Source: Bifidobacterium thermophilum
GTDB taxonomy: Bacteria; Actinomycetota; Actinomycetes; Actinomycetales; Bifidobacteriaceae
Assembly: GCA_000741495.1 (NCBI GenBank)
Contig: JGZV01000004.1
Coordinates: 248,001 to 312,000 of the forward strand
Length of the DNA stretch: 64,000 nt
Direction of reading: 5' to 3'
The notes beneath the pieces are model-generated. The model had not been told where the DNA came from and did not search any database. It was given only the letters and a program-made list of their open reading frames with translations. The position numbers were made by a program, and so were the translations under genes. Position 1 is the first letter of the stretch. Each line of letters starts with the position of its first letter. Of the stretch, positions 3,812 through 63,474 are shown piece after piece.

Positions 3812-4003
3812 GCTACCCGACTGTGGTGCGACCAGCCGGTTACACCGCAGCCAGATACCCCGACGATTCCGGCGGAGGCCGACGCTGCCCGGCCGCCGTG
3901 CGACGATGGTGTCACACCGCAAGCCGATATCTCCCCCGCGGCCCGCCCAAACCGAGGCATCCGCCCGCCATGCGACCGTTGCGTCACACGGCAGGCAGAT
4001 ACC
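3812..4003. repeat. Family A palindrome array, 3 copies, period 72-73 bp
   Basis: The 319-bp gap between dnaE and hisD holds three imperfect palindromes of 46-48 bp at 3812-3858, 3884-3931 and 3957-4003. Each has the core TGCGAC, 6-7 variable bases, then GTCACAC or GTTACAC, flanked by arms ending in a GATA-like block. Start-to-start spacing is 72 and 73 bp. The same unit recurs at 39.4 kb and 63.2 kb. The last copy abuts the dnaE stop. No gene is seen in the remaining 3693-3811. Confidence 0.8.
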
Positions 4004-16497: not shown

Positions 16498-16605
16498 GAT
16501 TTGTGAGCGAATCCTCACACGATGACAGCCGGACCAGCCCCACAGACCGATTTCAAACCACCCGACCGCCAACGTGTGAGCGAATCCTCACAGGGTGACG
16601 GCTGG
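16498..16605. repeat. Family B palindrome pair, period 73 bp
   Basis: The 412-bp gap between pilO and glyS carries two copies of a palindrome with core GTGAGCGAATCCTCAC, at about 16498-16532 and 16569-16605, spaced 73 bp. Each is followed by a conserved GATGACAGCCGG or GGTGACGGCTGG tail. The same unit occurs three times at 55.2 kb. The core resembles family A (TGTGA, eight bases, TCACA). Nothing gene-like was seen in 16606-16803. Confidence 0.7.
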
Positions 16606-23132: not shown

Positions 23133-24392
23133 TCAGGATGCCATGCTGTTCATGGCGTCGAACATGTGGAACATCGGCAGGTACAGGGCGACGACCATGA
23201 AGCCGACAACAACACCAAGAATGCAGATCATGATTGGTTCGAGCAGCGAGGTGAGCTGCTTGGCGATGCTCTGGACTTCGTCCTCGTAGGCTTTGCCGGC
23301 GCTTTCCACCATCTGGTCGATGGCACCGGAATCCTCGCCGATGGAAACCATTTGCACGAGCATCTGTGGGAACACCGGTTCCCTACCCATGCTGTCTGCC
23401 AAACGGTAGCCTTTCTCCACGTCTGCGGAAATACGGATGGAGGCGGTTTCGATGGCGTAGTTGCCGGACGTCTTACCGACAATGTTGAGCGCCTCGAGGA
23501 TTGGTACGCCGGATCGCAGCATGGAGGAGAAGTTGCGGCAGAAGCGGCTCAATGCGACCGCCGTGTTCAACTGGCCGAACACGGGAACGCGCAGTTTGAA
23601 CGGCTCCCACCAGCTGCGGATATAATCCTTGTTGCGGTTCTGCCGCCAATAGATCGAGAATCCGAAGATTGCGACAAGCAACAGCGGAATGACGATTGGC
23701 GCGGCCTTGCCCATCGCAACCAACACCATGGTCAGGGCCGGCAGTTGGGCACCCATGGACTCATACATGGAAGCGAAGCTCGGCACGATGGTGAGCAGCA
23801 TGACGCCGACCAGGATGAACGCGATGACGAGCACGATGACCGGGTATGCCATAGCGGATTTGATCTGGCCTTGGAGCCGGACGTCGGATTCGAAGTTGTC
23901 GGCCACGGTTTTCAGCGAGTCGTCCAGGAAGCCGCCAGCTTCACCGGCGCTGACCATGTGGATCATGATGGGCGGGAAAATGTCACCGCTCTGACTCATG
24001 GCGTCGGAGAAGGAGCTACCGCTTTCGATGAGGCTCGCGCAGGAGCGGAGCGCGTCGCGCAGCTGCTGGTTGCGGGTCTGTTCGGTGACGATATTAAGGG
24101 CGCGAATCAAAGAGACGCCCGCGCCGACCATGGTGGCGAGCTGGCGCGCCATGACGGCGAAGTCTTTTTTCGACGGGTAACGTTTGAAGCCTGGGATTTC
24201 GAGGTTCTTGTTCAAGCCTGACGCTTGGGTGGGATCGACCACGTTGAGTGGGACCAGCCCGAGTTTCTGGATGCGTCCGATCGCCTGGTCGAGTGTCATC
24301 GCCTCGACAGTGCCTTTGGTTTTCGTAGTGCCATCAACACTGATGGCCTCATACTTCCACTGCACCGGTTTTGCTGCAACTTCTGCTGGCAT
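23133..24392 (-). CDS. pilC: PilC type IV pilus platform protein
   Basis: A polytopic membrane protein of the GspF/PilC family on which the PilB and PilT motors act. Two T2SSF domains are visible (about residues 75-200 and 275-400), each ending in membrane helices. Motifs include MARQLATMVGAGVSLIRAL, SAGEAGGFLDDSL, CRNFSSMLRSGVPILEAL and SIGEDSGAIDQMVE. 419 residues is the typical length. Ribosome site AAGGGAG. It lies about 190 bp after the pilA1 terminator hairpin, so it is probably expressed by read-through or from an unseen promoter. Confidence 0.96.
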   Translation of the reverse strand: MPAEVAAKPVQWKYEAISVDGTTKTKGTVEAMTLDQAIGRIQKLGLVPLNVVDPTQASGLNKNLEIPGFKRYPSKKDFAVMARQLATMVGAGVSLIRALNIVTEQTRNQQLRDALRSCASLIESGSSFSDAMSQSGDIFPPIMIHMVSAGEAGGFLDDSLKTVADNFESDVRLQGQIKSAMAYPVIVLVIAFILVGVMLLTIVPSFASMYESMGAQLPALTMVLVAMGKAAPIVIPLLLVAIFGFSIYWRQNRNKDYIRSWWEPFKLRVPVFGQLNTAVALSRFCRNFSSMLRSGVPILEALNIVGKTSGNYAIETASIRISADVEKGYRLADSMGREPVFPQMLVQMVSIGEDSGAIDQMVESAGKAYEDEVQSIAKQLTSLLEPIMICILGVVVGFMVVALYLPMFHMFDAMNSMAS

Positions 24393-35387: not shown

Positions 35388-35882
35388 CGCAATCCCTTAT
35401 CTCTTATTCTCTAGCTCTCTCAGGGCGGCACACTCTACCACGTTGGAATCGCGCGCCATGCTGTGTCCAACGACGGCAATCCCGACATTAGGATGCAATC
35501 GCTGTCATTGTTTCACACTGTACAACATGCTGCCAACCGTGGACGGAATGTATCATTCGGTGGAACGGAGCAAAGCGTGGGCCGGAGCGGGTTCCCAGTG
35601 CTGGACGGGCTCTTCGATTCCACAGCGGGCAGTTGCGCGGGTAATGCGCGTGGTATGGAAAAGTAACCATGGAACAAAACGATCCGGCGGATTGGGCAGC
35701 GATGCCACATCGTTGATGTTCCGCGGTTCTGTGATATGTGAGGATAGCGAGCGCCGCACGATGCAACCGCCAAGGTCTCCACATCCGCAATATCGCATAC
35801 CGAAATGCGTCGTACGGAACGGGAGCCGGAGCAAGGTGCCCGTGTCCACGGCGAACCTTAGCATGGCACCCGTAATGCAGTG
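35388..35882. other. Intergenic region before the TPP riboswitch
   Basis: About 495 bp between the divergent acyltransferase gene and the thiamine riboswitch. I see no convincing coding region and no copies of the palindrome families. It must contain the promoter of the thi transcript, but no clear -35/-10 pair could be chosen. Confidence 0.4.
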
Positions 35883-35968
35883 CAGGGGAGCCGAACCGGA
35901 AGGCTAGGCTGAGAAAGGCATGACGCCTGACCCTTAGAACCTGTTGGTTAGAACCATCGTAGGGAGCA
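35883..35968 (+). ncRNA. TPP riboswitch (THI element)
   Basis: The conserved core is visible in order: GGGGAGCC at the 5' side, GGCTGAGA, a variable P3 stem, ACCCTTAGAACCTGTT, then the P1 return strand TAGGGAGCA. TPP binding would report thiamine status. The last element (AGGGAG, 35961-35966) is also the ribosome site of thiM, starting at 35973, so control is probably at translation initiation. Confidence 0.93.
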
Positions 35969-35972
35969 GCAC

Positions 35973-37007
35973 ATGAGCCTGAACGTCTCATCTGACCAGT
36001 CATATCAGCCATACCATTGCGTCGCCGCACCCATTGGCATGGGCGGATCGTCACCGACTCCATCCGCGGCGGCACCGGTCGTTCCAACGCCAAACACCGC
36101 AGCATCACAGTCCGGCGAAACCCAACCGCATATCGATGACCTGCGCCACCGGATCGAAACAGCAACCACGCGAGTACGCGGCACCACCCCGCTCGCGCAA
36201 TCCTTCACGAACTTCGTGACCATCAATCTGGTCGCCAACGCGCAGCTGGCATCCGGCGGGACCGCAGCCATGAGCTTCCTGCCTGACGACGTGATTGACA
36301 CGGCCGCCATCGCCGGATCCACCTACATCAACGTCGGTACACTGCTGCCGTTCTTCAAGGACGCCCTCACGCAAATCGCCCACCGATTCCACGAGATGAA
36401 GCATCCGTGGGTGCTGGACCCGGTCGCCGCGGGCATCGGCGCCACGCGTACCGCCATTCTCACCGACTTCAAAGCCGCTCCCCCGACCATCGTGCGCGGG
36501 AACGCGTCTGAAACCATCGCGCTTGCCGACATGTGGAGTCTCAATACCAACACCGTCATCGGCGGTGCCAATACCCCCGAACCCAGCACGCGACCGGCCG
36601 GCGTGGAAGCCGTTGACGACGTCGATTCAGCGCAGAATGCCGCGGTCCAGCTCGCCCGATACCTGCGTGACCATAACGGGCTCGGCCATGCCGCAGTGGC
36701 CGTATCCGGCGCAACCGACCTGGTCACCGACGGCGACACCATCTACCGGCTGCCCGGCGGCAGTGCCATGATGACCAAGATCACCGGGGCAGGCTGCTCC
36801 CTTGGCGGCGTCACCGCCACGTATCTTGCCGTCACCGACCCGCTGACCGCGGCAGTCGGCGCATCCGCCCTCTACAACCGTGCCAGCGAGCAGGCCGAAC
36901 GCGTCAGCCACGGTCCGGGCAGTTTCCAAACCGCGTTCCTTGACGCCCTGTGGAACACGAGCGCGCGAACAGTCGCCCAGTCCACAATCACCGCGAGCGC
37001 AGCCTGA
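35973..37007 (+). CDS. thiM: Hydroxyethylthiazole kinase ThiM
   Basis: ThiM phosphorylates 4-methyl-5-(2-hydroxyethyl)thiazole for thiamine salvage. The ribokinase-fold enzyme shows SFTNFVTINLVANAQLASGGTAAM, HPWVLDPVAAGIGATRT, IVRGNASETIALA and the C-terminal anion hole KITGAGCSLGGVTATYLA with its catalytic Cys. The N-terminus carries about 50 extra residues rich in Pro, Ser and Thr before the kinase domain. 344 residues. Directly controlled by the TPP riboswitch, with thiE-thiD next. Confidence 0.94.
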   Translation: MSLNVSSDQSYQPYHCVAAPIGMGGSSPTPSAAAPVVPTPNTAASQSGETQPHIDDLRHRIETATTRVRGTTPLAQSFTNFVTINLVANAQLASGGTAAMSFLPDDVIDTAAIAGSTYINVGTLLPFFKDALTQIAHRFHEMKHPWVLDPVAAGIGATRTAILTDFKAAPPTIVRGNASETIALADMWSLNTNTVIGGANTPEPSTRPAGVEAVDDVDSAQNAAVQLARYLRDHNGLGHAAVAVSGATDLVTDGDTIYRLPGGSAMMTKITGAGCSLGGVTATYLAVTDPLTAAVGASALYNRASEQAERVSHGPGSFQTAFLDALWNTSARTVAQSTITASAA

Positions 37008-39392: not shown

Positions 39393-39585
39393 GCTATCTT
39401 GCCGCGGTGCGACGGTATGATCACACCGCGGCAAGATAGCGGCGGGTACGGGGGCTGGACGCGAGATATCAGGCCGCCGTGCGACGCAACAGTCACACCG
39501 CAACCCGATACCATCAGGACAACAGGCAAAACAGCCGGTATCGCCCCGTTGTGTGATGATGCAGTCACACCGCGGGGCGATACCA
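39393..39585. repeat. Family A palindrome array, 3 copies, period 72-73 bp
   Basis: Three copies at 39393-39440, about 39465-39510 and 39538-39585. The first is a near-perfect palindrome with 17-bp arms (39393-39409 with 39424-39440); the third has 12-bp perfect outer arms. Shared core: GTGCGAC or GTGTGAT, variable bases, then CACACCG. Spacing is 72 and 73 bp, as at 3.8 kb. The first copy, 9 bp after the thiamine-binding gene, could also terminate the thi transcript. The remainder of the 314-bp gap to lacI contains a promoter candidate only. Confidence 0.85.
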
Positions 39586-55174: not shown

Positions 55175-55350
55175 ATGTGTGAGCCAAACCTCACAAAACG
55201 ACACCCACACCGACCGAATCGGCGCACACACCACAACCCAACCCGCCACCGTGTGAGCCAATCCTTACAAAGTGACGGTCGGCCAGACCGAACCACCACC
55301 ACAGGAACGTCACAACCGCCACCGTGTGAGCCAAACCTCACAGGTGACCC
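55175..55350. repeat. Family B palindrome array, 3 copies, period 73-74 bp
   Basis: Three copies of GTGTGAGCCAA(A/T)CCT(C/T)ACA with GTGAGCC cores at 55179, 55253 and 55326, spaced 74 and 73 bp. They match the pair at 16.5 kb. The last copy ends about 130 bp before the phosphotransferase-like gene. Confidence 0.75.
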
Positions 55351-63125: not shown

Positions 63126-63210
63126 GCGGCTGGCGGCCGGGGGGGTGACGGCCAGCGGGGTGACGGCAGGCGACGGCAGGTGACGGGGATCTGCCTGCCA
63201 AGTACGCGAG

Positions 63211-63474
63211 GTATCGGCTTGTCGTGTGACCGGACCGTCGCACCACAGACGGATAGCAACGGAACCCGCATGACACCAGCGACCCATCTGCCCGCCATGT
63301 GACCGGACCATCGCACAGCGGGCAGATAGCGGCGACGGTTGACGATTCCGCAGACGTATCTGCCCGCCATGCAACCAGACCGTCGCACCACAGACGGATA
63401 GCTCCAGGAATCAGCTGTTCCGGCCTGGTATCGACCTACTGTGTAACGATTCGGGTACACTGAGGGCGGATAGC
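63211..63474. repeat. Family A palindrome array, 4 copies, period 71-74 bp
   Basis: Copies at 63211-63257, 63285-63330, 63356-63402 and a degenerate one at 63428-63474, spaced 74, 71 and 72 bp. The asymmetric core appears as TGTGACCGGACCGTCGCAC, the reverse of the orientation at 3.8 and 39.4 kb. Outer arms read GTATCTGCC...GGCAGATAGC. The 475-bp gap murI to patatin gene otherwise shows GC-rich tandem-like sequence at 63126-63190 and a probable promoter area. Confidence 0.8.

Follow-up and report, generated by a model that had tools for sequence, protein, structure and literature searches.

Intergenic DNA of the window, by which we mean the whole 64,000-nucleotide stretch analysed (G000:C4:248001-312000, from a genome of 2.10 Mb in 12 contigs with 60% GC), carries small arrays of palindromic units that, judging by their sequence, are probably DNA-level binding sites of a DNA-binding protein with two-fold symmetry, scattered between genes much as BIME and REP elements are. 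The units of the first family (A) are 46-48 bp long, with the half-sites TATC-N8-GTGYGAC and GTCRCAC-N8-GATA facing each other across N6. At locus 1, the gap between hisD and dnaE, three palindromes of 48 bp lie on the minus strand at 3812..3859, 3884..3931 and 3956..4003 (the last 8 bp from the dnaE stop codon), separated by 24-bp linkers at 3860..3883 and 3932..3955. The initial annotation was right about three units here, but its spacings of 72 and 73 bp both measure 72 bp. It had also reported the same arrangement at two further loci, and this was confirmed. Locus 2 has minus-strand units at 39393..39440 (a near-perfect palindrome with 21-bp arms), 39465..39512 and 39537..39584, and locus 3 has minus-strand units at 63210..63257, 63283..63330, 63355..63402 and 63427..63474, spaced by 73, 72 and 72 bp including a degenerate fourth unit with 3 core mismatches. 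A second family (B) has the core TGTGAG-N6-CTCACA and a pitch of 73-74 bp, and is interleaved in phase with family A. It was first seen at a B. apri locus, where the core TGTGAGYSRATCCTCACA recurs 73-74 bp apart, in phase after A units. In the window, family B cores lie on the plus strand in an array of two units (TGTGAGCGAATCCTCACA at 16502..16519, and 16575..16592, 73 bp further on) and in an array of three (55178..55195, 55252..55269 and 55325..55342, at steps of 74 and 73 bp). Two other features of the window are a TPP riboswitch at 35874-35982, scoring just at the gathering score and located upstream of the reading frame at 35973-37007, and a cumulative GC skew maximum with a change of AT skew sign near position 24000, a possible replication terminus.

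A genome-wide search for an excess of cores and a preferred spacing had been set beforehand as the refuting test, and both the excess and a 72-73 bp peak were found. In the window genome, the core GTGYGAYN6RTCRCAC with up to two mismatches gave 237 matches versus 63 for the reversed control pattern, the exact core gave 25 versus 0, and a model of A units gave 150 strand-matches. Reading the stretches around matches showed that family A units form arrays of 2-7 units, and isolated single units also occur. Across the arrays that were read, which come from four genomes, adjacent A units were 72 bp (97 pairs), 73 bp (49) or 74 bp (4) apart, with six other distances found once each, so that 146 of 156 pairs were spaced by 72 or 73 bp; units in this count were partly chosen for their proximity to multiples of 72 bp, and the bare pairwise histogram peaks alike, the distances between all unit pairs (up to two mismatches) clustering at 72/73, 144-146 and 216-218 bp. 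The family B core, again with up to two mismatches, gave 74 strand-hits versus 1 for the control, and B-B neighbours were 73 bp (26) or 74 bp (12) apart. In mixed arrays, A and B neighbours lie 72-74 bp from each other in one shared phase. All family A units of an array have the same strand sense, and in a few B arrays a single unit is flipped.

Comparison between species points to the property that is maintained in these units. The conservation profile of family A units is dyad-symmetric, and between the window genome (G000) and B. boum (G014) divergence is 2.9% at the sixteen symmetric core positions, 8.7% in the linkers and 9.8% at other unit positions (core versus linker substitution, odds ratio 0.31, p=2e-6); the remaining two genomes follow the same trend of a slower core (p=0.003). 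This test carries a small bias, since one of the two genomes supplied the units through matches to a core pattern. The outer TATC/GATA positions played no part in unit detection, are free of this bias and likewise evolve slowly (13 changes in 411 cells). Between species, purifying selection acts on the sixteen dyad-symmetric positions and not on the arms. A slow symmetric core combined with arms that change at linker rate shows that what is selected is two-fold symmetric base identity rather than arm pairing, a pattern that would be expected of contact between protein and DNA.

The linkers had been described as non-conserved, which is correct for sequence identity (0.288 between linkers, close to the 0.262 of shuffled ones) but misses a helically phased composition. 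The 24-bp linkers have two A/T-rich places, ~10 bp from each other (0 of 5000 shuffles were as strong), and the A/T step, which can occupy either place and point either way, is usually GATTC or GAATC. These motifs are enriched 9-17 fold, with 25 occurrences versus 2.9 expected in family A linkers and 14 versus 0.8 in family B linkers, and the linker profiles are mirror-symmetric about their midpoint (correlation 0.95 for A and 0.89 for B). Including TATC/GATA, A/T steps fall ~21, 31, 42 and 52 bp from the unit centre. The phasing is pronounced on the array sides of units (amplitude 1.67 versus a null maximum of 0.45) and absent outside terminal units (0.46 versus a null maximum of 0.59). Constant spacing and similar linkers can partly be inherited from tandem duplication; the linker phasing between units is the best evidence that the geometry of neighbours matters, and an inherited ancestral repeat would be expected to show one orientation and uniform decay.

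Dense A and B arrays were found in only four of 112 Bifidobacterium genomes, namely the window genome, B. boum, B. apri and G101. Exact A and exact B cores pick out the same four, and a covariance model of A units gave at least 54 matches in these and at most three weak matches elsewhere in the genus, of which those in G027, G034, G035 and G064 turned out on reading to be unrelated hairpins and were rejected as family members. Among 297 genomes of the order, only two boum-group members match the B-pair pattern, and a search of viral contigs with this pattern found none. The DNA polymerase III alpha protein encoded beside locus 1 shares 97-99% identity with its counterparts in B. boum, B. thermophilum and B. 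apri, which places the window genome in the B. boum group. One B. saguini contig carries two dnaE-like loci (L070 and L106), 84% and 77% identical to the window protein.

Array positions are largely shared among these relatives and array sizes vary. The compared relatives mostly have an array at the same site, and of 20 B. boum arrays selected for their score, about 19 share their position with a window-genome array. In the dnaE-hisD gap, the units sit between the dnaE stop and a conserved region upstream of hisD and number four in B. boum, three in the window genome and two in B. apri, and the compared B. thermophilum has degenerate traces only. Unit number changes between species in steps of ~72 bp, with breakpoints of gain and loss mostly within units and at varied positions, so that ordinary recombination or slippage between neighbouring units explains the changes in size. 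Site-specific recombination at the N6 centre was rejected, since the breakpoints are spread across the unit rather than central. The earlier statement that the arrays are not a simple tandem duplication is partly wrong as history, since exact 72-bp units come and go by neighbour recombination. Pieces of arrays have also been duplicated locally, in the C10 arrays and in G049. The latter genome carries two B arrays in a ~7-kb segment, 6.7 kb of which is 96% identical to the window genome, indicating horizontal transfer of array-bearing DNA rather than independent spread; the idea that these B arrays represent, in a relative, the ancestral lone site next to its cognate regulator was rejected, because they came with the transferred segment. 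Some gene-content differences start or stop at arrays (L205 in G101 compared with G000:C5:90340-99178, and L227 at B. apri C1:321.5-326.6 kb compared with window locus 2), as does the transferred 7-kb segment (L214 in G049), resembling favoured recombination boundaries.

No examined array falls within a called gene. Their contexts, which rest on simple in-house gene calls, are 26 tandem, 11 convergent and 8 divergent, and the arrays are mostly closer to gene ends than to gene starts, with some within 30-40 bp of gene starts. Their neighbours are functionally unrelated and comprise dnaE/hisD, purF, recQ, recG, glnE, phosphoketolase, pgi, murA, ettA and others, which speaks against a regulon and favours a structural or topological role. 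Such a role (intergenic insulation, supercoil management or nucleoid anchoring) is likely, rather than the control of one gene set.

The initial annotation had offered a protein-binding array or a repeated RNA stem as alternatives. The dyad core, core-only purifying selection, seven-turn spacing, phased linkers and shared phase of A and B units favour the DNA and protein option, and the RNA stem is weakened. Transcribed hairpins serving as mRNA stabilisers, terminators or sites for RNase III or an RNA-binding protein would suit the very stable folds of single units on one strand (to -41 kcal/mol, z -8.8 and -11), the excess of G.U over A.C pairs on one strand of each array, some near-perfect palindromes and a B unit with a terminator-like T run. 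The stable folding makes hairpins possible, yet it is not the conserved property. The proposed check for covariation in the stems found none overall, 77.6% of cells being paired across 72 oriented units versus 76.8% (sd 0.6) in column shuffles, with simulated power such that compensation of 10% of mispairs would have shown; the palindrome is thus a symmetry of the consensus, not of individual copies. A larger set (204 A and 64 B units) gave weak covariation at positions 8-14 only (z 3.8 for A, 3.3 for B), much of it carried by near-perfect palindromes, of which family A has 8 versus 1.9 expected. This mid-arm signal may reflect relatedness, quasipalindrome correction or the co-option of single units as terminators, and leaves room for hairpin-related processes. 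Arm positions, however, diverge as fast as linkers, helically phased linkers would make no obvious sense for an RNA, and the array strand opposes the flanking genes in 4 of ~15 tandem cases. Orientation by G.U over A.C was rejected as an RNA sign, since it tracks a wider G/T skew that runs on into the linkers in ~25 of 28 arrays. The units matched no Rfam family, and with covariation absent or weak an RNA hairpin family was rejected; we regard the hairpin explanation as very unlikely. As separate observations, the B unit with the T run (L164:700-760) has extended perfect arms followed by TTTTTT and resembles an intrinsic terminator built from an array unit, and the G/T-rich array strand keeps its sense over long contig stretches (minus on C1 and C4, plus on C5), perhaps following the direction of replication. 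A different regulatory explanation would make the units operators of a lineage-specific transcription factor, e.g. a tetrameric repressor looping the 70-73 bp between operators. Operator pairs in LacI-type looping have dyad half-sites at looping-range spacing, which the TGTGA-N8-TCACA half-sites and the pitch of the arrays recall, and the arrays at most 30-40 bp from gene starts would fit. Dozens of arrays next to unrelated housekeeping genes, the mixture of tandem, convergent and divergent contexts, and the tendency toward gene ends rather than starts make this explanation quite improbable.

Non-autonomous mobile element remnants or tandem duplications without present function, i.e. selfish or decaying repeats, would account for the restriction to one clade, the gain and loss of units by neighbour recombination and the local duplication of array pieces. 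They would not account for a core that evolves about three times slower than the linkers, and decay would not yield phasing only between units. Moreover, Y1_Tnp (RAYT, PF01797) had no match in the window genome, which is 99% complete and in which positive controls worked, and dispersal by a REP transposase was rejected for this reason. A search for half-sites gave 82 matches versus 0 for the control, and the places listed were all inside dyadic units; MITE- or IS-derived ends were rejected, as neither lone half-sites nor IS-like ends accompany the arrays. Absence of function is unlikely in light of these points. A functional alternative is that the arrays act as gyrase landing strips, a counterpart of BIME-2, where gyrase or another DNA-wrapping topoisomerase binds the units, wraps the phased linkers and absorbs supercoils between transcription units. 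The E. coli gyrase motif is symmetric and ~130 bp long; its centre measures 36 bp and is flanked by two arms of 47 bp with a GC periodicity of 10.75 bp, and BIME-2 elements are enriched in gyrase cleavage sites (PMC6379681). This symmetry, periodicity and enrichment, the A/T steps at the four distances from the unit centre given above and the location of arrays between functionally unrelated genes all speak for gyrase. Against it, a gyrase acting alone would require phasing outside terminal units, and none is present there; the E. coli motif is degenerate, unlike the units with their strong, short palindromic core; and the enzyme is expected in all bifidobacteria while the arrays are confined to one clade. 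We consider a gyrase target rather unlikely.

The preferred reading remains that of binding sites for a two-fold symmetric protein, which would be dimeric or of higher order. Neighbouring units would be bound on one face of the helix, 72-73 bp corresponding to seven helical turns, and the proteins bound to them would touch each other. The linker between neighbours might be bent or wrapped, with the minor grooves of the A/T steps facing inward, so that two units and their linker (~120 bp) would form one nucleoprotein module. Array size changes through recombination between neighbouring units. A fuller version, possible but doubtful, would have clade-specific, sequence-encoded nucleoprotein arrays in which a dedicated dimeric or tetrameric DNA-bending protein, two palindrome classes, one continuous seven-turn register and bend-shaped linkers build phased, chromatin-like modules between transcription units. 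If the binding-site reading is right, the arrays provide a natural genome-wide set of phased sites in which both site and linker shape are encoded, and could lead to a bacterial complex that organises the chromosome and whose geometry would be directly testable. The arrays show BIME-like dispersal without a REP transposase, and they give boum-group bifidobacteria fast-evolving, species-shared markers that may bound regions of gene exchange. We found no earlier description of such arrays in the literature, as far as open papers are concerned.

Several known systems share parts of this architecture. Like CRISPR arrays, the arrays combine 48-bp palindromic repeats with variable stretches of ~24 bp, but the repeats are ~70% alike rather than near-identical, the arrays are tiny and number dozens, and the spacers are phased instead of random. 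As in LacI-type operator pairs, dyads lie ~7 helical turns apart, and on visual comparison only, the family B core looks like the lac operator half-site; in contrast to such pairs, the arrays occur genome-wide beside unrelated genes. With the gyrase motif and BIME-2 sites of E. coli they have in common two-fold symmetry, a module of ~120-130 bp and A/T where the minor groove would face the protein. They differ in their strong short dyad consensus, in a period fixed by the array at 72-73 bp and in having periodic flanks only on the side facing another unit, whereas in the gyrase motif both flanking arms are periodic. Among known kinds of repeat, the REP/BIME class (PMC2817692) comes closest. 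The REP or PU sequences and BIMEs of enterobacteria and pseudomonads are likewise clustered, many-copy (in the order of 100 per genome), palindromic and intergenic, mix more than one unit type, occupy sites common to related species, lie near gene ends and are clade-specific. The arrays described here are set apart by a 46-48 bp palindrome, a fixed pitch of 72-74 bp and helically phased linkers, and their family A units share one sense within an array, whereas REP units alternate in BIMEs. Since both a RAYT gene and alternating orientation are lacking, we call the arrays BIME-like rather than members of the REP/BIME class.
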